In this document: positions 3,786 through 43,783 of the stretch, in pieces | Layout: each line of letters starts with the position of its first letter | Numbering within the stretch: the stretch's first letter is position 1 | Assembly: GCF_900291465.1 (NCBI RefSeq) | Contig: NZ_LT985808.1 | Span: 3,048,539-3,112,538 of the forward strand | Reading direction: 5' to 3' | DNA from: Bacteroides sp. Marseille-P3684 | GTDB lineage: Bacteria; Bacteroidota; Bacteroidia; Bacteroidales; Bacteroidaceae | DNA length: 64,000 nucleotides | Program-made: the position numbers and the translations under genes | Notes under the pieces: model-generated | Databases searched by the model: none | What the model was told of the DNA's origin: nothing | What the model saw: the letters and a program-made list of their open reading frames with translations, nothing else

Positions 3786-5354
3786 TTACATTTTCATGCC
3801 TTTGTTGTTCTTCTTTTTCGGCTTCTCCTGCTGCTGTTGCTGGCGGTCGTCCTTCGGGGCGGTCTGACCTTTCTGCAAAGGCTCTTTCAGGTTCTTTGTC
3901 GCCTCGTTGGTTTTGCCCTCGTTGTTCACCGCCACCTGTGTGCGGCTCTCGTTGGACGGGGCGACCTGCTGGGCGTTGTCGGGGTTCGTTTCGTAGCGGT
4001 ACGGGCGGCCCTTCTCCGGGTTGAACTTGATATACATCGTGGCATGGAAGCCCTGCTTGTCGGTCACGTTCTCCAGTTTCACGGCTTTACCCGCCACGTA
4101 GTCGGCTTTCTGCTTGTCGGTGAAGTTCACGCCGCTCCATTTGCTGATGGGGCGGATGCTGCCGTCCTCGTTCATCCACGTGTTGCGGCGTTGCTCCTTC
4201 TTGGTCTGTGCGGCATTTTCCCCGCCTTGCGCCTGACTTTTCGAGGTGTCACCTTTGGCTTCCTGCGTCTGTGCGGTACGGGGCGACCTTCCGGTTCCCG
4301 GCACGAACTCCACGCCGCGCTGCTCCACGTTCACTTGAAGGGTGGTGACGAACTTCCTGCCGTCGTTGCGCTCGATGAGCTTGTCGCGCACGGGCAGTCC
4401 GGCGCGGAGCATGTCCTGCTCCTGTTTGGTGATTTCCGTCTTGCCGATGCGCTCCGGGATGCGCACCTTGTTTGCCGGAATGTCCGTGATTTCATTCGTC
4501 TTGCGGTCGATGCTGATGTAGGAGGGGATGATTTCGCCCGTTTCCCTGTCCTCAATGTCCACGACCCTGCCGAGGTTGCCCGTTTCGCGCAGGTTCTTCC
4601 GGTCATCGTCGGAGAATTTGTGTTCCTTGTACTCATCTAACTTCTGCTCCTTGCGGATGAAGTGCGGCACGAGGCTGACATTTCCCTCACCGTCCTTCTT
4701 GAAGGAGAGGCGGGCGTCCAGCTCGAATGATTCGCCGCCGAAGGTGGGCTTGACCTTTACCAAGTCGGACTTGCCGTAGTGGAGCATCTTCGTAAGGTCT
4801 CCGGACTTTTCAAGGTCGTCACGCTTCACGCCCCATCTGTCCTCCAGCTCCTGCCAGTTGATTTTGCTCTCGTTGATGGGTTGGTAGCCCTGTCTGCCCT
4901 GCGTCTGTTGCGGGCTTTCCTGCTGTTCTTTCTGTTGTTCCATGTTTTCCTGTTTTTGAGGTTCTTGTTTCTCTGTCTTTTGTGCCGCCATCTCTTCCTG
5001 CACCTGCTGTTGATAAGGGAAGGTGTCGATTTTGTGCGGTGCAAGGATTTGTTTGTTCTGGTACGGATGCTGAAGCAGGTCTTTCATCACGCCAAGCATG
5101 GAATCCACTTGGTCTGCCGCGATGCGGTAGAAACCGAAGCGGCTGGGTTCCTTGCACTGCCGGAAGAAGTTCTTGAAGAAGTTGTCCAGCACGTCGCCTT
5201 GTCGGTCGAATTGCAGGAAACTCTGCGCGTTCTCAGCTTTCGCAGGGGTACGCTTGGGTGTGCCGTCTGCATTCAGCCCGGCTACCACGCTGATCTCGCC
5301 CGTCTTCTCATCACGGACTACCAGCACGTCCTTTTCGTCTTTTTTCTTTGCCAT
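3786..5354 (-). CDS. DUF3945/DUF4099 protein (CTnDOT orf3-like position)
   Basis: A 522-residue, charged, glutamine-rich protein with no signal peptide. Residues 1-110 form a conserved start (SFLQFDRQGDVLDNFF). Residues 115-155 are a low-complexity QKQEN/EQQKEQQ linker. The centre, with NWQELEDRWGVKRDDLEKSG and later repeats such as GKTEITKQEQDMLRAGLPV, matches my recollection of DUF4099/DUF3945. The C-terminus is a basic KPKKKNNKG tail that could bind DNA. It lies between the xis-like genes and the topoisomerase, as orf3 does in CTnDOT. The biochemical role is unknown. Confidence 0.8.
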   Translation of the reverse strand: MAKKKDEKDVLVVRDEKTGEISVVAGLNADGTPKRTPAKAENAQSFLQFDRQGDVLDNFFKNFFRQCKEPSRFGFYRIAADQVDSMLGVMKDLLQHPYQNKQILAPHKIDTFPYQQQVQEEMAAQKTEKQEPQKQENMEQQKEQQESPQQTQGRQGYQPINESKINWQELEDRWGVKRDDLEKSGDLTKMLHYGKSDLVKVKPTFGGESFELDARLSFKKDGEGNVSLVPHFIRKEQKLDEYKEHKFSDDDRKNLRETGNLGRVVDIEDRETGEIIPSYISIDRKTNEITDIPANKVRIPERIGKTEITKQEQDMLRAGLPVRDKLIERNDGRKFVTTLQVNVEQRGVEFVPGTGRSPRTAQTQEAKGDTSKSQAQGGENAAQTKKEQRRNTWMNEDGSIRPISKWSGVNFTDKQKADYVAGKAVKLENVTDKQGFHATMYIKFNPEKGRPYRYETNPDNAQQVAPSNESRTQVAVNNEGKTNEATKNLKEPLQKGQTAPKDDRQQQQQEKPKKKNNKGMKM

Positions 5355-5374
5355 TTGAAAAATGTTTTAATGGG

Positions 5375-5725
5375 TTATTTATGAAAGAAATTATGGATAC
5401 GAGCCTTGTAGAAGGCTATATCTTCTTTTTTGAAGTCCTTGATATGGTTGGAAAGGAATGTCAGCACATCCTCCTCGCTGTAATAGGTTTTCTTGCCCAG
5501 TGTCTTGTAGGGCAATGCGCCGACACTGCGGTAGCGTTGCAGTGTGCGCTTGCTTATCTGGAGCAGCATGCACAAATCCTGATTGTCGAAAAGGCGGATG
5601 CTTTCCGTGATAGTAGGCTGTTTCCCCTCAGCCTTCATCGCCAGCAGCAGTTCGTCCTGACGGTCGAGCCGTTCCATCAGCTTCTGCATCCAGCCCTCGA
5701 AGTTGTTTCGTGTGAGCAGTTCCAT
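5375..5725 (-). CDS. Small HTH DNA-binding protein, Xis2d-like
   Basis: A 116-residue protein with a C-terminal helix-turn-helix of the excisionase/MerR type (DLCMLLQISKRTLQRYRSVG, then LPYKTLGKKTYYSEEDVLTFL). It starts 3 bases after the stop of the similar gene upstream. CTnDOT encodes two such proteins, Xis2c and Xis2d, that bend DNA with the integrase during excision. The assignment rests on order and domain type. Confidence 0.75.
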   Translation of the reverse strand: MELLTRNNFEGWMQKLMERLDRQDELLLAMKAEGKQPTITESIRLFDNQDLCMLLQISKRTLQRYRSVGALPYKTLGKKTYYSEEDVLTFLSNHIKDFKKEDIAFYKARIHNFFHK

Positions 5726-5728
5726 GAC

Positions 5729-6085
5729 CTATGTCCTCCTTCCTTTTGGTTTGCCGCCAGTGCGCAGCGTGTGGTTGCGTTTCAATTCCTGCGGTGTCGC
5801 CGCGTCCTCGTTGACGGCACACGCTTCAAGCAGGCGGTCTATTTCCGACTGCCGGTAGCGGCATTTACCGCGAAGCACGACATAACCGATGCGTTGCTCG
5901 CTGCGCATACGCTGGAGGGTGCGGGTACTCACGTTAAGCAGGTGCGCCGCCTCGCGTGTGGTGAGCAACCTGTCGGGCGATGCCGCTTTCTTGTCGCCGG
6001 AGGCGGCACGGACGTGTGCCGCAATCTCCGCTATCTGTTCCGTCAATGACCGGAAGGCGGAACTTTCCATCGTTATCACTTTCAT
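5729..6085 (-). CDS. Small HTH DNA-binding protein, Xis2c-like
   Basis: A 118-residue protein starting MKVITMESSAFRSLTEQIAE. A short amphipathic N-terminus is followed by an excisionase-type HTH (LTTREAAHLLNVSTRTLQRM, then YVVLRGKCRYRQSEIDRLLE). It is first of the leftward set xis2c-xis2d-DUF3945-topB. The ATG at 6085 was preferred over upstream starts because those run through the shared control region with the divergent gene. Likely role: excision cofactor and possibly activator of transfer genes, as for CTnDOT. Confidence 0.72.
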   Translation of the reverse strand: MKVITMESSAFRSLTEQIAEIAAHVRAASGDKKAASPDRLLTTREAAHLLNVSTRTLQRMRSEQRIGYVVLRGKCRYRQSEIDRLLEACAVNEDAATPQELKRNHTLRTGGKPKGRRT

Positions 6086-6153
6086 ATTCAGTCCTTTCTT
6101 TTTGTTTCTGCAGCAAAAATCGGCAATAAACAAAAGGGGCTTTAACAACTCAC

Positions 6154-6168
6154 TACGTGACTCACGTA
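6154..6168. promoter_or_regulatory. Palindromic operator candidate between divergent HTH genes
   Basis: TACGTGA-C-TCACGTA is a perfect 7-bp inverted repeat with one central base. It sits 68 bases upstream of the xis2c-like start and about 120 bases upstream of the divergent HTH gene. One of the four HTH proteins around it could bind it. A comparable dyad, GTGAGTTA-TCGG-TAACTCAC, lies at 8720-8739 upstream of the integrase. Confidence 0.4.
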
Positions 6169-6260
6169 AGATTTTTACGGAAGATGGCTCCGTAACCCGG
6201 TCAAACGGCGCAACAGGCAGCCTTTCAGCGGAAAACGGCACGTGTTCAGGACCGTACCGT

Positions 6261-6268
6261 TACCTTTG
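6261..6268 (+). promoter_or_regulatory. Bacteroides -7 box for the rightward HTH pair
   Basis: TACCTTTG matches the Bacteroides -7 consensus TAnnTTTG and lies 20 bases before the ATG at 6288. No convincing -33 TTTG is seen. Confidence 0.5.
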
Positions 6269-6287
6269 CGGGCAAACCGATAATTGC

Positions 6288-6587
6288 ATGAATATGGAAA
6301 TAGTATCTATCGAGAAAAAGACTTTCGAGATGATGGTGGCGGCATTCGGCGCACTCTCGGAGAAGGTCGCCGCCCTGAGGCGCAAAAGCGACACGAGGCG
6401 CATGGAAAGATGGCTCACGGGCGAGGAAGTCTGTAGGCAGTTGAGAATAAGTTCGCGCACGTTGCAGACGCTGCGCGACAGGCGGCTTATCGGCTACTCG
6501 CAGATAAACCGCAGGTTTTATTACAAGCCGGAGGAGGTGAAGCGGCTGATACCGCTTATCGGCACGCTCTATCCGCACGGCAGATGA
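6288..6587 (+). CDS. HTH domain protein of the ICE
   Basis: A 99-residue protein (MNMEIVSIEKKTFEMMVAAF). Residues 1-40 are a short helical segment and residues 45-99 an excisionase/MerR-type HTH (LTGEEVCRQLRISSRTLQTL, YSQINRRFYYKPEEVKRL). It is a paralogue of the three other HTH proteins nearby and is transcribed away from xis2c. It may be a regulator of excision or transfer. A second possible start lies two codons downstream (6294). Confidence 0.7.
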   Translation: MNMEIVSIEKKTFEMMVAAFGALSEKVAALRRKSDTRRMERWLTGEEVCRQLRISSRTLQTLRDRRLIGYSQINRRFYYKPEEVKRLIPLIGTLYPHGR

Positions 6588-6618
6588 TTTGATTTATTCA
6601 CCCACTGAATCCGAAGTT

Positions 6619-6924
6619 ATGATGAACGAGAACAACGATGTTTTTACGATGGAAGACGAGCCGATAGCCTCTGTGGTGCAGGATATGCGCAAAGGCTCGA
6701 AATGGCTGTCCGCCTTTCTGGAAAGTTACCGTCCTCTGCTGGACGGGGAACGTTACCTGACGGACGGCGAGGTGGCGGAACTGCTCCGCGTAAGCCGACG
6801 CACATTGCAGGAATACCGCAACAACCGCGTGTTGCCCTTCATACTTTTGGGAGGGAAGGTGCTTTACCCGGAAACGGGGCTGCGTGAAGTGCTGGAAGCA
6901 AATTACCGCAAGCCGCTGGAGTGA
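6619..6924 (+). CDS. HTH domain protein of the ICE
   Basis: A 101-residue protein with acidic N-terminus and a C-terminal HTH (LTDGEVAELLRVSRRTLQEY, then LPFILLGGKVLYPETGLREV). It follows the previous HTH gene by 31 bases and is probably cotranscribed. Two adjacent ATGs (6619 and 6622) could serve as the start. In conjugative elements of this kind such pairs are annotated only as helix-turn-helix proteins; the target is unknown. Confidence 0.68.
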   Translation: MMNENNDVFTMEDEPIASVVQDMRKGSKWLSAFLESYRPLLDGERYLTDGEVAELLRVSRRTLQEYRNNRVLPFILLGGKVLYPETGLREVLEANYRKPLE

Positions 6925-36677: not shown

Positions 36678-38555
36678 TCAGAAGCGGATGTCCACTCCAC
36701 CCATGAAGGTCGCCCGCGGCATGGGGTAGCCCTGCATGACCTCATAGCGTTGTGCCAGCAGGTTCTCCCCCTTCACATAAAGGGAGGCAAAGCGGCAGAG
36801 GCGATAGGAAGCACGCGCATTCCACAGCACGAAGTCTTCCGTCGTGCCTGAACCGGACGTGGAGGTGTACAGGTCCTTGACGTACTGCACACCGGTCGCC
36901 ACATTCCATCGTCCGTCGCGGAAGGTGATGCCGGCATAGAGCTTATGTTCCGGGGCGGCAAGCACGGGGTGCTCCATGTGCAGCCAGCTGTAGTTGGCAT
37001 CGACGTCCCAGTGTGCGTCCAGGCGGTAGGCGGACGTCAGCTCCACGCCCCAGTTCTCTATCTCGCCGGAGTTGAAATAGCGGGGGACTGTCGGGTCGAG
37101 CAGGATGGTGTTGTCTCCTTTTATATAGTACAGGTTGGCACCGTAGGACAGGCGTCCGCCAGGCAGCCGCTGCGTGAAGGAGAGCTCGTAGTTCATCAGA
37201 CGCTCGGCCTTCAGGTCCGGATTGCGCGGGTTGAACATGTACATCTCGCGGATGGTCGGGTTGCGGAAGCCCTTGCTCACCATGGCACGCAGTTCCGCCT
37301 GCCGCGGCAGGTGGAAGGCCAGTCCGCCCTGTGGCACCAGCTCCGTCCCGACATGCGAATGATGGTCCACACGCAGACCGACGTTGAGCGAAAGCCAATC
37401 GCCGAGCGACTGGCGGAAGTCGGCGTAACCGGCAAACTCATCCTGCTTCTTGTCCACACCGGGACGCTTCTCACCCGTGGCAAGTACCTTGTTCCAGGAC
37501 TCTCCGCCGAAGTGCTGGTAGTCGAAGCCCAGCGTCAGCCGGTTGCCGGCAAAGAGGGTCGCGCTCTGATACCACGACACTCCCATCATGAGGTCCTTGG
37601 AGTGGAAACGGTAGTCGCGTGGAGTGCCTCCGGGACTGTATCCGTCGTCGATGCGGTGGTTGCCCCAGTTGTAGAAGAAGCTCAGGGCACCCGACGTCCG
37701 GTCGTAGTTGTTCTGCAGGGCTACGGACGTCATGCCGCGCGTGATGTGCGAATCATTGTCCACCAGCGGCGCACTCACCGGACCGGGATTGGAGGCGTTG
37801 AAGTGGGTGACGTTCACGTCGGCATACGCTTTCCAGTGCGGGGTGAAGTCGTAGCCCAACTTGGCATAGCCCCCTGCCTGTTCGAAGCCGAGGTCGGCGC
37901 GGTGTCCGTCCGTCCGGTTATAGGAAGCCGCAACGATGCCCGAGAAACGTCCCCGACGCAGGAGGTGGGTAGCCTCCGTCTGCAAGGTGCCGTACGAGCC
38001 TCCTCCCAGCCGGATGTGCGTGTATCCTCCGTCAGCCTGCTGCTGCCGCGTGACGATGTTGAGCACCCCGCCCATGGCATTGGAACCGTAGAGCACCGAC
38101 GCGGGACCGCGCAGGACCTCCACCCGCTCGGCAAGCATCGTCTGATAAGCATCGGCGATGGGATGCCCGAAGAGGCCCATGTACTGCGGATGTCCGTCGA
38201 TGAGCACGAGCATCTGCGACGTACCCCCGATGCCACGCACGGTGATGCTTCCGGCTGCCCCGGTCGAGACGCCATAGCCCATCAGGCTGCGGCTCGTGGT
38301 GAAGAGTCCCGGCACCTGCTCGTTGAGTAGCGGCAGGATGGAGGATTCGTAGCGCTCCTCCAGCTGACGGCGGTCGATGACGGAGAGGGTCATGGGCAGA
38401 TGGTGCACGTCGGTGGCATTGCGTGTCCCGGTGACCACGACCTCGCGGAGGGCACGGTCCCGCAGGATGGAGTCGGCAGGCAGTGTCTGTGCCGACAGTC
38501 CTGCCGAAAGGGTCAGCAGGAACGGGGAAAGAAGGCATTTCTGAAGGTTTGTCAT
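36678..38555 (-). CDS. TonB-dependent outer-membrane receptor
   Basis: A 625-residue receptor of the short BtuB/CirA-type class. Signal peptide: CLLSPFLLTLSAGLSAQ. The TonB box and plug start at LREVVVTGTRNATDVHHLPM; plug continues with GAAGSITVRGIGGTSQMLVL and EVLRGPASVLYGSNAMGGVL. A barrel with aromatic strand ends closes on GGVDIRF, the typical terminal phenylalanine. It imports a small ligand such as a metal chelate, haem or cobamide; which one is not shown. There is no SusD partner. Its promoter carries operator copy 1 exactly 30 bp upstream of the -7 box, shared with the divergent AraC gene. Confidence 0.93.
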   Translation of the reverse strand: MTNLQKCLLSPFLLTLSAGLSAQTLPADSILRDRALREVVVTGTRNATDVHHLPMTLSVIDRRQLEERYESSILPLLNEQVPGLFTTSRSLMGYGVSTGAAGSITVRGIGGTSQMLVLIDGHPQYMGLFGHPIADAYQTMLAERVEVLRGPASVLYGSNAMGGVLNIVTRQQQADGGYTHIRLGGGSYGTLQTEATHLLRRGRFSGIVAASYNRTDGHRADLGFEQAGGYAKLGYDFTPHWKAYADVNVTHFNASNPGPVSAPLVDNDSHITRGMTSVALQNNYDRTSGALSFFYNWGNHRIDDGYSPGGTPRDYRFHSKDLMMGVSWYQSATLFAGNRLTLGFDYQHFGGESWNKVLATGEKRPGVDKKQDEFAGYADFRQSLGDWLSLNVGLRVDHHSHVGTELVPQGGLAFHLPRQAELRAMVSKGFRNPTIREMYMFNPRNPDLKAERLMNYELSFTQRLPGGRLSYGANLYYIKGDNTILLDPTVPRYFNSGEIENWGVELTSAYRLDAHWDVDANYSWLHMEHPVLAAPEHKLYAGITFRDGRWNVATGVQYVKDLYTSTSGSGTTEDFVLWNARASYRLCRFASLYVKGENLLAQRYEVMQGYPMPRATFMGGVDIRF

Positions 38556-38580: not shown

Positions 38581-38588
38581 CAAAGGTA
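38581..38588 (-). promoter_or_regulatory. -7 box of the TonB receptor gene
   Basis: TACCTTTG on the minus strand, 25 bases from the start codon. Operator copy 1 (38619-38647) begins exactly 30 bp upstream. Confidence 0.7.
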
Positions 38589-38618
38589 ACTGCCTGCCGC
38601 CACAATCGGGGTAGACGG

Positions 38619-38647
38619 ATTACCGCAGTTACTACCCGAATTACGGA
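38619..38647 (-). promoter_or_regulatory. Predicted AraC operator, copy 1
   Basis: A 29-bp site that matches copies 2 and 3, in reverse orientation, at 23 of 29 positions, including TTACGGA and ACCCGA. It is 30 bp upstream of the TonB receptor -7 box. Confidence 0.68.
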
Positions 38648-38674
38648 ACACCGCGCCCCTCCCCGTCCCTCCGT

Positions 38675-38703
38675 TCCGTAACCCGGGTTGCAACATCCGT
38701 AAT
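38675..38703 (+). promoter_or_regulatory. Predicted AraC operator, copy 2
   Basis: A 29-bp site with half-sites CCGTAA at 38676 and 38697, 21 bp apart, around the palindrome AACCCGGGTT. It is 30 bp upstream of the AraC gene's -7 box (38734-38741), so the regulator likely controls itself. Confidence 0.75.
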
Positions 38704-38733
38704 AAAGGTTATGCGTGTTCCCGACCTATCCAC

Positions 38734-38741
38734 TACTTTTG
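38734..38741 (+). promoter_or_regulatory. -7 box of the AraC regulator gene
   Basis: TACTTTTG, 44 bases before the ATG at 38786, matches TAnnTTTG and lies 30 bp after operator copy 2. Confidence 0.65.
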
Positions 38742-38785
38742 CAGACGAAAGAAAACCCTAACGAGTTGACGATTACGCTCCACCT

Positions 38786-39691
38786 ATGGAAGATAAGAAC
38801 CACACACTGGACCTCAAAAGTGTATACGACTGCAACCGCTGCCTGGGATGCCGGACCCTCCATCCGCAGGCGACGCTCATCAACCTGGAGAACCCGGAGC
38901 TGGGGTGCGACGCCGTGAAGTTCGAGTTCTATGCCATCCTGCTCATCGAGGAGTGCCCCGACGGATGCCACTGCTGCGGACGGAAGTACGACGACTTCTC
39001 CACCGCCACCATGGTGTTCCTCACACCGGGAGCCATCTTCCGCATGACCACCGACAACACCCTGCCCGACAAAGGGTGGCTGCTGGCGTTCCACCCCGAC
39101 CTGCTGTTCCGCACGACGCTGGACAACCACATCCGCAACTACACCTTCTTCGGCTACCGCAAGGAGGAGGCGCTCCACCTGTCGCAACGCGAAACCGCCA
39201 CGGTGACCTGCTGCCTGGAGCACATCGAGGAGGAACTGCACCACCCCATCGACACCCATACGCGCACCATCCTCTCCCGCCACATCGAGCTGCTGCTGGA
39301 CTACTGCACACGGTTCTACGAACGTCAGTTCATCACCCGCGAGAACAAGAACAAGGCACTCCTCAGCCGGGCGACCAGGCTGCTCGACACCTACCTGACG
39401 TCCGGCAGGCTGGAGGACGGCAGGCTGCCCACGACCGCCTCGTTTGCCACGGAACTGGGACTCTCGGCTGCCTACTTCGAGGACCTGCTGAAGTTCGAGA
39501 CCGGCAAGACGCCCGACGAGTGCTTCCAGCTCAAACGTCTGAAGATGGCGAAGCACCTGCTGCAGGACCCCGCCCACACCCCTGCGTTCGTGGCGCGCCG
39601 GCTGGGCTACCCGAGCGTGCAGTCGTTCAGCCTGCTCTTCAAGCGGTTCACGGGTGTGTCGCCCGGCGAGTACCGCCTCGGGGGCAGCTGA
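38786..39691 (+). CDS. AraC-family regulator with cysteine-rich N-terminus
   Basis: A 301-residue regulator. Residues 195-295 are the two-HTH AraC domain (FATELGLSAAYFEDLLKFET, ARRLGYPSVQSFSLLFKRFT). The N-terminal ligand domain carries an unusual cysteine set: CNRCLGC near residue 16 and CPDGCHCCGRKYD near residue 57, plus a further TCCLEHIEEELHH. Such CxxC clusters suggest a bound metal, an Fe-S centre or redox control; this is inference. It is divergent from the TonB receptor gene. Two operator copies lie in the shared region and a third precedes the DUF3737 operon, so it probably activates all three. Confidence 0.88.
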   Translation: MEDKNHTLDLKSVYDCNRCLGCRTLHPQATLINLENPELGCDAVKFEFYAILLIEECPDGCHCCGRKYDDFSTATMVFLTPGAIFRMTTDNTLPDKGWLLAFHPDLLFRTTLDNHIRNYTFFGYRKEEALHLSQRETATVTCCLEHIEEELHHPIDTHTRTILSRHIELLLDYCTRFYERQFITRENKNKALLSRATRLLDTYLTSGRLEDGRLPTTASFATELGLSAAYFEDLLKFETGKTPDECFQLKRLKMAKHLLQDPAHTPAFVARRLGYPSVQSFSLLFKRFTGVSPGEYRLGGS

Positions 39692-39716
39692 CACACGGAC
39701 GGGGACGGATGGGATT

Positions 39717-39914
39717 CATGTACGGCACAGACGCGACTAACCCCGGGCCTGTACGGACCAAAGTATTATACTTAGACCCCCTAAGTATTATACTTTGGCA
39801 GCCTAAGTATAATACTTTGGTCTGTCTATCCCCCACATGTACGACGTCTACCCCCTACAGGCACGACGTTCGTCCGCCGCATGTACCGCGCTCCTCCCCC
39901 GTCGGGTGGACGGA
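39717..39914. repeat. Degenerate array of about nine 22-bp units (array C)
   Basis: Units start every 22 bases from 39717. Three AT-rich units (39761, 39783, 39805) have the near-palindrome AAGTATWATACTTTGG. GC-rich units either side share a pattern such as TAYCCCCYACAKGYACGACGT (39827, 39849, 39871). The period equals that of the repeats at 18136 and 49562 although the sequence differs. A 22-bp period cannot be protein-coding. No gene fits between 39692 and 39989. Confidence 0.65.
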
Positions 39915-39942
39915 CTCATTTCACCGTTTGGCGCAATTGATG

Positions 39943-39950
39943 TATCTTTG
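39943..39950 (+). promoter_or_regulatory. -7 box upstream of the FMN reductase remnant and MATE gene
   Basis: TATCTTTG matches TAnnTTTG and lies 39 bases before the ATG at 39990. It probably survives as the promoter of the MATE gene. Confidence 0.5.
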
Positions 39951-39989
39951 CGCCGCCTAAGAATCCTATAACATAAAAAAACAAGTACT

Positions 39990-40172
39990 ATGAAAGTTCT
40001 GTTAATCAATGGTAGCCCTCACCGTGAGGGCAATACCTTCATCGCCTTGTCCGAGGTGGCACGCGTCCCGGAGACACCCCCACACGGCTCATCCGGGAGA
40101 CAGACCCTGAACCTGAAACTGACTTTAAGGAACCCAAAGACTTCTCATGAAACAACAAACAGAAAAGGCTGA
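39990..40172 (+). pseudogene. Truncated NAD(P)H-dependent FMN reductase remnant
   Basis: The first 23 residues (MKVLLINGSPHREGNTFIAL...) are the flavodoxin-fold start with the FMN phosphate loop GSPHREGNT. After residue 23 similarity ends and the frame runs out in basic, low-complexity sequence, stopping at 40172. Full proteins have about 180-210 residues, so an internal deletion removed most of the gene. The remaining frame overlaps the MATE start by 26 bases and may now serve as its leader peptide. Confidence 0.7.
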
Positions 40173-41571
40173 AGCCCTGTTGGCCCTCATCCGTGAAGGC
40201 AAATCACTGACGTTCGGCCAGCAGCTCAAGCTGACCGCCCAGCTGAGTATCCCTTCCATCGTGGCACAGCTCTCCAGCATCGTCATGCAGTACATCGACG
40301 CCTCCATGGTGGGCAGTCTCGGTGCCGACGCCTCGGCATCCATCGGACTGGTATCCACCACGACGTGGCTCTTCGGCGGACTCTGCATGGCAGCCACGGC
40401 AGGCTTCTCCGTCCAGGTCGCCCACCGCATCGGGGCGAACGACTTCACCGAGGCACGTGCCGTGCTGCGTCAGGGTCTGGTTGCCATCGGGCTGTTCGGA
40501 CTGACGCTTGCCCTCATCGGCGTCTCCATCAGCGGCTTCCTGCCCGGGTGGCTGGGCGGCGACGAAGTAATCCGCCGGGATGCCTCGCTCTACTTCTTCA
40601 TCTATGCCCTCTTCCTGCCCGTGCTCCAGATGAACTTCCTCGCCGGAAGCATGCTGCGTTGCAGCGGGAACATGCACATGCCCAGCCTTGCCGGCGTGCT
40701 GATGTGCGTGCTCGACGTCATCTTCAACTTCTTCCTCATCTTCCCCTCGCGGGACATCCGGCTGGGCAGCTTCACGCTCTTCATGCCGGGCGCAGGACTG
40801 GGCGTCGAGGGAGCCGCCCTGGGAACGGTCCTTGCCGAGACCATTGCCGCCGGGTTGCTGCTCTGGTTCCTGCTCACCCGCTCTCCCCAGCTCCGGCTGA
40901 CGAAGGAACACGGACGCTTCCGCCCCACTGCCGCCACCCTCAGGAAGGCTTTGCACATCGGTCTGCCGATGGGCATCGAGCATGCGGTCATCTGCGGCGC
41001 CCAAATCATGACCACGGTCATCGTGGCTCCGCTGGGCATCTTCGCCATTGCCGCCAACTCGTTTGCCATCACCGCCGAGAGCCTCTGCTACATGCCCGGC
41101 TACGGTATAGCCGACGCTGCGACCACCCTCGTGGGGCAGAGCATGGGAGCAGGCAGACGGGACCTGACCCGCCGGTTCGCCTACATCACGGTCTTCATGG
41201 GCATGCTCATCATGGGGCTCATGGGGGTCATCATGTACGTTGCCGCCCCGCAAATCATCGGTGTCATGACTCCCGTCGACGAGATCCGCGAGCTGGGTGT
41301 CATGGCGCTCCGCATCGAGGCATTTGCCGAACCGATGTTCGCGGCAGCCATCGTCGCCTACGGTGTGTTCGTGGGTGCGGCAAGCACGCTCATCCCCTGC
41401 CTGATGAACTTCTTCAGCATCTGGGCGGTGCGTCTGTCACTCGCAGCCCTGCTCGCCCCGACCCTGGGACTGAAGGGCGTCTGGATAGCCATGTGCGTGG
41501 AGCTGTGCTTCCGGGGAATCATCTTCCTCATCCGCCTGTTCCGTGGCAAGTGGCTCAAGACCATCCGGTAG
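40147..41571 (+). CDS. MATE family multidrug/Na+ antiporter
   Basis: A 474-residue inner-membrane protein with 12 predicted segments. Family features: LTAQLSIPSIVAQLSSIVMQ, IDASMVGSLGADASASIGLV and, in the second half, HIGLPMGIEHAVICGAQIMT and DAATTLVGQSMGAGRRDLTR. MATE proteins export drugs or metabolites using Na+ or H+. Start ATG 40147 overlaps the FMN-reductase remnant. A dyad (GATGCC/GGCATC, 41583-41596) after the stop may terminate, and operator copy 3 follows at once. Confidence 0.92.
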   Translation: MKQQTEKAEALLALIREGKSLTFGQQLKLTAQLSIPSIVAQLSSIVMQYIDASMVGSLGADASASIGLVSTTTWLFGGLCMAATAGFSVQVAHRIGANDFTEARAVLRQGLVAIGLFGLTLALIGVSISGFLPGWLGGDEVIRRDASLYFFIYALFLPVLQMNFLAGSMLRCSGNMHMPSLAGVLMCVLDVIFNFFLIFPSRDIRLGSFTLFMPGAGLGVEGAALGTVLAETIAAGLLLWFLLTRSPQLRLTKEHGRFRPTAATLRKALHIGLPMGIEHAVICGAQIMTTVIVAPLGIFAIAANSFAITAESLCYMPGYGIADAATTLVGQSMGAGRRDLTRRFAYITVFMGMLIMGLMGVIMYVAAPQIIGVMTPVDEIRELGVMALRIEAFAEPMFAAAIVAYGVFVGAASTLIPCLMNFFSIWAVRLSLAALLAPTLGLKGVWIAMCVELCFRGIIFLIRLFRGKWLKTIR

Positions 41572-41597
41572 CCTTCGGGTGATGCCCGACGGCATCA

Positions 41598-41626
41598 TCC
41601 GTAATCCAGGTTACAACAACCGTAAT
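41598..41626 (+). promoter_or_regulatory. Predicted AraC operator, copy 3
   Basis: Nearly identical to copy 2 (differences at four of 29 positions), with CCGTAAT half-sites at 41599 and 41620, 21 bp apart. It lies 30 bp before the -7 box at 41657-41664. Confidence 0.78.
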
Positions 41627-41656
41627 TTATCTACAAGGAGAATAACAGGCGCTTTG

Positions 41657-41664
41657 TACTTTTG
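41657..41664 (+). promoter_or_regulatory. -7 box of the DUF3737-PatB operon
   Basis: TACTTTTG matches TAnnTTTG. The leader to the ATG at 41758 is about 87 bases and contains the hairpin GGCATCC-GTC-GGGATGCC. Confidence 0.65.
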
Positions 41665-41757: not shown

Positions 41758-42618
41758 ATGAAAGAGATCAAGAATCAGGAGTTCGGAGGCGAACGTCCCC
41801 TGTTTGCCTCGCACGACCTCCATTTGGACAACGTCATCATCCGCGCCGGCGAATCTGCCATCAAAGAGTGTAGCAACATCATAGCCACCAACTGTACGTT
41901 TGAAGGGAACTACCCGTTCTGGCATGTGCACGGGTTCACCATCGACCGCTGCTTCTTCGACGTCGGCGGACGTTCGGCACTGTGGTATTCCGACCACCTG
42001 AAGATGACCGACACGCGCATCGATGCCCCGAAGATGTTCCGCGAGATGGACGACATCGAGATAGAGAATGTGGTGATGAACGACGCCGACGAAGTGTTCT
42101 GGCGTTGCAACCGGCTTCACATCAAGAACCTCAAGCTCCACGACGGCACCTACCCCTTCATGTTCAGCAACGACATCTACGTCGACGGACTGGAGAGTGA
42201 CAGCAAGTATGTGTTCCAGTATGTGAAGAACGTCGAAATCCACAACGCACGGATTACGACCAAGGATGCGTTCTGGGAGGTGGAGAACGTCACCATCTAT
42301 GACTCCGAGCTGAACGGCGAGTACCTCGGCTGGCACTCACGCAACCTGCGCCTGGTCAACTGCCACATCACCGGCGAGCAACCGCTCTGCTACGCACAGG
42401 ACCTCGTGCTGGAGAACTGCACCTTCGGTCCCGACTGCGACCGCGCCTTCGAGTACAGCACCGTGAAGGCCGACATCCGCGGCGCCATCACGAACATCAA
42501 GAACCCGACGTCGGGACACATCGTGGCGGACTCCATCGGCTCCATCACCCTCGACGAGAACATCAAGGCGCCCGCCGACTGCGTCATCGAAGAGAGAGGA
42601 GGCAGCCATGCGGTATGA
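41758..42618 (+). CDS. DUF3737 family beta-helix protein
   Basis: A 286-residue cytoplasmic protein of repeated short strands (FTIDRCFFDV, LKMTDTRID, IEIENVVMN, VEIHNARIT, VTIYDSELNGEYLGWHS), the pectate-lyase-like right-handed helix of DUF3737. Family function is unknown; it often adjoins AraC or flavodoxin genes as I recall. Upstream in-frame residues lie in the leader and were left out. Its end overlaps the PatB start by 11 bases. Its promoter carries operator copy 3. Confidence 0.82.
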   Translation: MKEIKNQEFGGERPLFASHDLHLDNVIIRAGESAIKECSNIIATNCTFEGNYPFWHVHGFTIDRCFFDVGGRSALWYSDHLKMTDTRIDAPKMFREMDDIEIENVVMNDADEVFWRCNRLHIKNLKLHDGTYPFMFSNDIYVDGLESDSKYVFQYVKNVEIHNARITTKDAFWEVENVTIYDSELNGEYLGWHSRNLRLVNCHITGEQPLCYAQDLVLENCTFGPDCDRAFEYSTVKADIRGAITNIKNPTSGHIVADSIGSITLDENIKAPADCVIEERGGSHAV

Positions 42619-43783
42619 CTTCGACGAGATAATCCCGCGCCGGAATACCAACTCCTACAAGTGGGACAGTGCGGCGGATGCCGACGTCCTCCCCTTGTGG
42701 GTGGCTGACATGGACTTCCGCACGGCAGCCCCCATCGTGGAGGCGCTGCAACGGCGCGTCGCCCACGGCATCTTCGGCTACACACGGGTACCGGACGCCT
42801 ACTACGATGCCGTCACGGACTGGTTCGCCCGCCGTCACGGCTGGACCATCCGACGCGACTGGATGATTTACACCTCGGGAGTGGTGCCCGCCCTCTCTGC
42901 CGTCATCAAGGCACTGACCGTGCCCGGCGACAAGGTGCTGGTGCAGACTCCGGTCTACAACTGCTTCTTCTCCTCCATCCGCAACAACGGATGCGGGATG
43001 GTCAGCAGCCCCCTGACATACGAGGACCGGACGTACCGCATGGACTTCGAGGACCTGGAACGGAAGGCAGCCGACGAGCGGGTCAAGGTGATGCTGCTCT
43101 GCAATCCCCACAACCCTGCCGGACGTGTCTGGACCCGCGAAGAGCTGACCCGTCTGGGTGACATCTGCCTCCGCCACGGGGTCACGGTCGTCTCGGACGA
43201 GATTCACTGCGAGCTGGTCTACCCGGGACATACCTATACGCCGTTCGCCTCCCTGTCGGAGGAGTTCCGGCAGCACTCGGTGACGTGTGTGTCGCCCAGC
43301 AAATCGTTCAACATGGCGGGCCTGCAGATTGCCACCATCGTAGCTGCCGACGACGACATGCGCCGACGCATCGACAAGGCAATCAACATCAACGAGGTGT
43401 GCGACGTCAATCCCTTCGGCGTACTCGCCACCATCGCCGCCTACAACGAGGGCGAGGAATGGCTCACCCAGCTCCTTGCCTACCTGCATGCCAACTACCG
43501 CTACATGCAGGCTTACTGCGAGGAGCATCTGCCCGACTTCCCCCTCACCCGCCTCGAAGGCACCTACCTGGTGTGGATGGACACCCGTGCGCTCCGTCAG
43601 CCGTCGGAGGAACTGGAACACCGCCTCACACAGGAGGCGCGGCTCTGGCTCAATGCAGGCACGATGTACGGTGCCGAAGGGGAAGGCTTCATGCGGTGGA
43701 ACATCGCCTGCCCGAAGTCCGTACTCCATGAGGGACTCGAACGCTTCCGGCAGTATGCAGAGGCACACAGACAGCACACGTAA
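42608..43783 (+). CDS. MalY/PatB-type aminotransferase (cystathionine beta-lyase-like)
   Basis: A 391-residue fold-type I PLP enzyme. It begins MRYDFDEIIPRRNTNSYKWD and has the family's LPLWVADMDF. PLP contacts are LLCNPHNPAGRVWT and VVSDEIHCEL, and the Schiff-base lysine is in SPSKSFNMAGLQ. MalY/PatB enzymes split C-S bonds of cystathionine or cysteine conjugates. It is translationally coupled to DUF3737 and under the predicted AraC control. A paralogue lies at 50296-51468. Confidence 0.9.
   Translation: MRYDFDEIIPRRNTNSYKWDSAADADVLPLWVADMDFRTAAPIVEALQRRVAHGIFGYTRVPDAYYDAVTDWFARRHGWTIRRDWMIYTSGVVPALSAVIKALTVPGDKVLVQTPVYNCFFSSIRNNGCGMVSSPLTYEDRTYRMDFEDLERKAADERVKVMLLCNPHNPAGRVWTREELTRLGDICLRHGVTVVSDEIHCELVYPGHTYTPFASLSEEFRQHSVTCVSPSKSFNMAGLQIATIVAADDDMRRRIDKAININEVCDVNPFGVLATIAAYNEGEEWLTQLLAYLHANYRYMQAYCEEHLPDFPLTRLEGTYLVWMDTRALRQPSEELEHRLTQEARLWLNAGTMYGAEGEGFMRWNIACPKSVLHEGLERFRQYAEAHRQHT

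Follow-up and report, generated by a model that had tools for sequence, protein, structure and literature searches.

The araI1-I2 element of Escherichia coli is a class II site of AraC, and it provides one point of comparison for a set of regulatory sites found in a 64,000-nt stretch of the genome of Bacteroides sp. Marseille-P3684 (the window, whose coordinates are used below wherever no other label is given). In this window an AraC-family gene, a divergent gene for a TonB-dependent receptor, and a gene pair encoding a DUF3737 protein and a PatB-family C-S lyase are each preceded by a copy of one sequence element, which ends at a fixed distance from a -7 promoter box. The arrangement of the sites resembles araI1-I2, but here the half-site is a different one, the -7 box is of the Bacteroidota type, the sensor is rich in cysteines, and there is no sugar operon. 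We consider it likely, judging from sequence, that these sites belong to a real AraC gene-control circuit with a fixed promoter spacing, one that recurs in other Bacteroidales.

Two further regulators of the family bear comparison. YqhC of E. coli is described as an AraC/XylS activator divergent from the yqhDE genes, whose products are an aldehyde reductase and an aldo-keto reductase (PMC5297802). The present system would share with this glyoxal/furfural response a regulator transcribed away from its target genes; it differs in that no aldo/keto reductase occurs among the window proteins scanned, and in that the N-terminal domain of the regulator matches no Pfam model. The two may be alike in outline. 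The model of the reactive-chlorine regulator RclR (NF040475) matches the regulator weakly (29.6 bits against a cut-off of 400), over residues 180-297 only, so that the likeness is limited to the C-terminal part and the sensing domain is unmatched.

The promoters of Bacteroides that depend on Sigma-ABfr have a consensus of TTTG at -33 and TAnnTTTG at -7 (PMC10620806), and the -7 box found here is that consensus. Tables of the iron-dependent stimulon of B. thetaiotaomicron include the AraC regulator BT1385 and the CMD protein BT1121 (PMC10434189), and an AraC regulator, PG_2125, is listed elsewhere (PMC12119571). Within the open-licence literature searched, no study was recognised as treating the present regulon, and the term DUF3737 appeared in no paper. 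The rule of a 36-bp site with TAnnTTTG at 30 bp would predict targets for an AraC subfamily that has relatives (E<=1e-30) in 92 of 392 Bacteroidales genomes, would supply a regulatory context for DUF3737, and singles out a regulator of gut bacteria as a candidate for sensing chemical stress.

Recurrence of the site and its spacing

Three related 29-bp sites can be read in the window, at 38619-38647 on the minus strand and at 38675-38703 and 41598-41626 on the plus strand; the two plus-strand sites differ from each other at 4 of 29 positions, and at all three promoters exactly 30 bp separate the site from a TAnnTTTG box. An initial annotation made from the letters of the sequence had described this geometry, and our reading bears it out. 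With 42 copies of the box in the window, both strands counted, the chance of finding two further boxes at the spacing of the first is about 1e-7. A matrix built from the three sites scores above 13 nowhere else in the window, and the three-site pattern, allowed up to 3 mismatches, finds the same three sites and no others in the 3.7-Mb genome (1 match for the reversed control).

The same spacing recurs among relatives. Of 45 loci retrieved with the AraC protein as query (L007-L051), 43 were used, a duplicate of L008 (L009) and a Neobacillus record (L051) having been dropped. At a score above 13 the window matrix makes 62 matches in these loci, which were picked by AraC homology and are mutually related, so the matches are not independent events. 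TAnnTTTG follows at exactly 30 bp in 40 of the 62, compared with 6 for all other offsets combined over the 68 bases scanned. Sixty column-permuted matrices made on average 2.7 matches (maximum 8), with no box at 30 in any of them. The argument of the annotation that equal spacing is not due to chance is thus upheld.

A genome-wide view was obtained with a relaxed pattern, GTAAN4GGTN8CNGTAATN30TAnnTTTG. It occurs at 73 places in 38 of the 392 genomes, and neither the reversed control nor a pattern with one extra base gave a match. In this genome it finds four sites without mismatch (control 0), the fourth of them at G000:C1:1458732 before a Flavodoxin_4 gene, outside the stretch that the annotation covered; the regulon of three promoters that had been predicted keeps its exact geometry while its count is incomplete. 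Nor are there many copies away from promoters. The full 36-bp site, searched without any box, occurs at 53 places in 34 of 382 genomes (control 0), and 39 of these, by a comparison of the lists by hand, also figure in the site-plus-box list, which places the box exactly 30 bp downstream; the site is therefore rare and most copies lie before a -7 box. Ten of the other 14 matches were read, of which three have TAnnTTTG at 29 or 31, five have a near-miss box at 29-30, and two have neither.

These results bear on the simplest alternative, that the sites are chance likenesses or copies of a local repeat with no regulatory role. Two near-identical sites do lie 3 kb apart, but recurrence at a fixed spacing in 38 genomes, set against none in two controls, and the dissimilarity of the bases between site and box make this reading extremely improbable; on the reversed and off-by-one controls, together with the permuted matrices, it was rejected.

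The site also travels with the AraC subfamily, which is present in 37 of the 38 genomes that have the site-plus-box pattern, the exception being G227 (Fisher p 2e-25, uncorrected for ancestry). Measured start to start against the AraC genes listed, at least 25 of the 73 sites lie within 1.2 kb and at least 32 within 10 kb.

Anatomy of the site and its promoters

An alignment of 118 distinct sites, 92 from the loci and 26 from the site-plus-box genome matches (not all 73 were entered), shows an element of about 36 bp, made up of TCnGTAAnnnnGGTA and then TCnGTAATnnnT/GnTA beginning 21 bp downstream. The initial annotation thus had the position of the site right and its length of 29 bp too short. 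T35 is present in 97% and A36 in 81% of the sites, and neither position was used in the matrix or in the site-plus-box pattern. The second direct half-site ends 23 bp ahead of the box, and positions 38-59, between site and box, carry 0.00-0.20 bits each.

It is at -33 that the promoters part from the Sigma-ABfr consensus. TTTG stands at that spacing in 0 of 92 sited promoters, as against 19 of 203 other TAnnTTTG boxes ahead of reading frames; for TTG the figures are 7 of 92 and 34 of 203. Off position, the 203 control boxes show TTTG in 8 cases and TTG in 20. Direct half-sites about 21 bp apart, held at a fixed spacing and adjoining the -35/-33 region, are what characterises a class II AraC-dependent promoter and are seen in these sites, and the simplest reading of the sequence is that the site would replace the -33 element by way of a class II AraC-type activator.

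AraC-family proteins can repress, and divergent sites such as these could loop, so that the sites might instead be operators for repression. This seems quite unlikely, since they lie upstream of the -7 box at a fixed spacing and without overlap, and the spacer lacks a -33 element, all of which suits activation.

Where sites are paired between divergent genes, the gaps cluster at 1, 11, 22-24, 33-36 and 54-56 bp, in steps of roughly one helical turn, with a vector strength of 0.75 at period 11 in a set of which several loci are apparently close kin (L007, L008, L011, L013, L017, L023, L024, L026, L027, L028, L035, L038, L039 and the window). The gap in the window (38648-38674) is 27 bp, an outlier.

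The regulator and its paralogues

The regulator has a cysteine-rich N-terminal domain of cupin type and a C-terminal helix-turn-helix. In the predicted structure (predicted local distance difference test, pLDDT, of 88.3) the former is RhaR/AraC-like and the latter AraC-like, and the protein thus combines the C-terminal AraC-type helix-turn-helix of the AraC/XylS family with its N-terminal sensing and dimerisation domain; when solved structures were searched with a sequence profile, nearly all matches fell in the helix-turn-helix half. Three cysteines, Cys16, Cys63 and Cys64, are invariant in all 35 clade members (loci L105-L120 served for this AraC alignment only), and at two of the three positions the residue in the more distant paralogues is tyrosine. 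The cysteines suggest, tentatively, that the signal may be a thiol-reactive compound or a metal.

The tyrosine-type paralogues raise the question of which protein reads the sites. In 8 of 42 loci a single site precedes a tandem pair, the tyrosine-type gene (AraC_b) first and the cysteine-type gene directly after it (L007, L008 at 5081-6900, L011, L013, L016, L027, L028 and L032), where the 42 are the window and L007-L048 without L009. The same motif lies near tyrosine-type genes in G330, G316 and G304, genomes for which no relative of at least 55% identity is among the matches listed. The tyrosine-type protein, or a possible heterodimer of the two types, might then read the same sites, with the cysteine-type protein as only one partner. 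We regard this as unlikely: in the window the cysteine-type gene stands alone between its sites, and the two paralogues of this genome, of the kind about 40% identical (C1:1929460 and C1:3253505), were rejected as neighbours of a site because the trained matrix scored nothing above 6 in the stretches fetched around them.

Candidate targets and the proposed circuit

The sites, boxes and genes of the window are collected in Table 1. First genes behind the 92 sites were grouped by blastp linkage, with group names that rest on one or two scanned members each; because the pattern itself had supplied 30 of the 92 sites, the counts characterise this collection and should not be taken as frequencies. 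Besides the gene in the window, 19 AraC genes are sited, in support of the predicted autoregulation. The other groups are CMD-cupin (12), DUF3737 (10), alpha/beta hydrolase (9), FMN reductase (7), NapH-type ferredoxin (6), a mixed flavodoxin/DUF362 group (5), TonB receptor and hexapeptide transferase (4 each), MATE (3, in L013, L027 and L073), aldo/keto reductase and ferredoxin-flavodoxin (2 each), and seven other singletons; one site has no called gene behind it. Counted by presence in the 42 loci, DUF3737 is found in 8, MATE in 12, PatB in 7 and TonB in 4, and aldo/keto reductase, not found at the window locus, is sited in 2.

Table 1. Predicted promoter elements and genes around the AraC-family regulator in the window
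Feature	Position	Strand	Remarks
TonB-dependent outer-membrane receptor	36678..38555	-	Pfam PF00593, PF07715
-7 box TACCTTTG, TonB receptor	38588-38581	-	30 bp from 29-bp site
AraC-type site, TonB receptor promoter	38612..38647	-	predicted half-sites 38647-38633, 38626-38612; 36-bp form from alignment
AraC-type site, AraC gene's own promoter	38675..38710	+	sequence reading; 36-bp form from alignment
-7 box TACTTTTG, AraC gene	38734-38741	+	30 bp from 29-bp site
AraC-family regulator, 301 aa	38786..39691	+	HTH_18 E 1.9e-17
MATE efflux transporter	40147..41571	+	PF01554 E 7e-44
AraC-type site, DUF3737-PatB promoter	41598..41633	+	sequence reading; 36-bp form from alignment
-7 box TACTTTTG, DUF3737-PatB	41657-41664	+	30 bp from 29-bp site
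DUF3737 protein, first gene of probable operon	41758..42618	+	PF12541 E 5.6e-126
PatB-family C-S lyase	42608..43783	+	TIGR04350 482.6 bits, cut-off 340

The two structural targets proposed at the outset gain support as predictions. Of the AraC-neighbouring loci, 8 contain DUF3737, and in 7 of them it is sited; across the order DUF3737 is present in 30 of 387 genomes, 24 of which also carry the AraC family, and in G236 a second copy stands behind a site-plus-box match. The link between DUF3737 and the site appears strongest near the cysteine-type clade. As for the receptor, L024 and L026 repeat the divergent TonB/AraC arrangement and its paired sites, their receptors being 70% and 69% identical to that of the window, and L090 has a sited receptor fragment (62% identical over 458 residues).

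Such divergent pairs are also what would be expected of an uptake circuit, in which the receptor's substrate, or a product of the C-S lyase, would be sensed by the AraC protein, which would then switch on import and breakdown. This is rather improbable, as receptor homologues occur in the 4 loci just counted and no others of the 42, one of them being 37% identical and unsited, and the larger sited groups are redox and detoxification enzymes. As a general reading, the sensing and uptake put forward by the initial annotation accordingly finds no support: the receptor is targeted in few of the loci seen, and the larger groups are CMD-cupin, DUF3737, alpha/beta hydrolase, FMN reductase and ferredoxin genes. 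The target set reads instead as redox and detoxification, with uptake as a lineage-specific branch.

From the sites with their spacing and conservation, the linkage to the AraC subfamily and the cysteines, we infer binding by the regulator, a dimer, activation and the kind of signal, as follows. The regulator would be an autoregulated class II AraC-type activator, bound as a dimer to the two direct half-sites TCnGTAAnnnnGGTA and TCnGTAATnnnT/GnTA, 21 bp apart. Once bound, it would substitute for the absent -33 element and recruit RNA polymerase at the Bacteroidota -7 box. The input, perhaps a thiol-reactive compound or a metal, would be felt by cysteines that cluster on the N-terminal arm and in one loop of the cupin-type domain. 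Predicted targets in this genome are the TonB receptor, the AraC gene itself, the DUF3737-PatB pair and perhaps the distant flavodoxin gene, and the output here would be a redox/detoxification set of C-S lyase, flavodoxin and receptor, to which relatives would add MATE efflux, FMN reductase, CMD-cupin, aldo/keto reductase, hydrolase and ferredoxin. In its widest form, which we hold to be somewhat short of an even chance, this amounts to a Bacteroidales-wide stress regulon not described before: a cysteine-switch AraC sensor, opened or closed by a thiol-reactive compound or a metal, would act through a tandem site that stands in for the -33 element at a rigidly fixed register, and the promoters would be silent without the regulator. 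Such a regulon would be the equivalent, in Bacteroidota, of the YqhC-type response of enterobacteria.

Several observations weigh against a circuit of this kind or its extent. The genome co-occurrence test ignores shared ancestry, and of the 92 genomes that hold an AraC relative, 55 lack a site-plus-box match, their sites being either different or absent. Three genomes have the site and no AraC relative at E<=1e-30, namely G227, by the site-plus-box pattern, and G019 and G317, by the box-free 36-bp search. Conservation is weaker beyond the close clade. Among the 15 members of the genus, 6 of them with genomes at least 90% complete, only this genome (G000) matches a stricter pattern in which AAC is required mid-site. 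AraC relatives are present in 6 of the 15, and the one close relative (72% identical), in G001, is divergent from DUF3737 with back-to-back sites that lack AAC (L104, 10076-12076) and has its own box at 29 rather than 30. Order-wide, 30 DUF3737 loci were read, some of them fragments; 7 have a site close upstream with its box at exactly 30, and in two more the box is at 29. The contrast at -33 is modest, given that the control boxes have TTTG in 19 of 203 cases on position and 8 of 203 off it. In other genomes, paralogues about 40% identical adjoin sites of this kind, and a given site may be read by one paralogue or another. Finally, it is the target families only that suggest stress.

Neighbouring features complete the picture of the locus. 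The start of PatB overlaps the 3' end of the DUF3737 gene, and because it begins there the two probably form one operon. The start of the TonB receptor was taken as the first ATG past the box. Its top-scoring solved chains are BtuB (E about 1e-14), and an assignment as the BtuB vitamin B12 receptor was rejected at 140.7 bits for TIGR01779, against a cut-off of 599.7. A site for the MATE gene of the window was likewise rejected, none being seen by eye 30 bp ahead of TATCTTTG at 39943-39950 and none scoring above 13 by the matrix.

At 39990-40148 a 53-aa frame resembles the truncated N-terminus of a flavoprotein of the FMN_red family (PF03358, E 0.002, which is below cut-off); in some relatives the FMN reductase gene is full-length and has the AraC site. 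Between the AraC and MATE genes, at 39759-39830, repeated palindromic AAGTATTATACTT-like units can be seen by eye.

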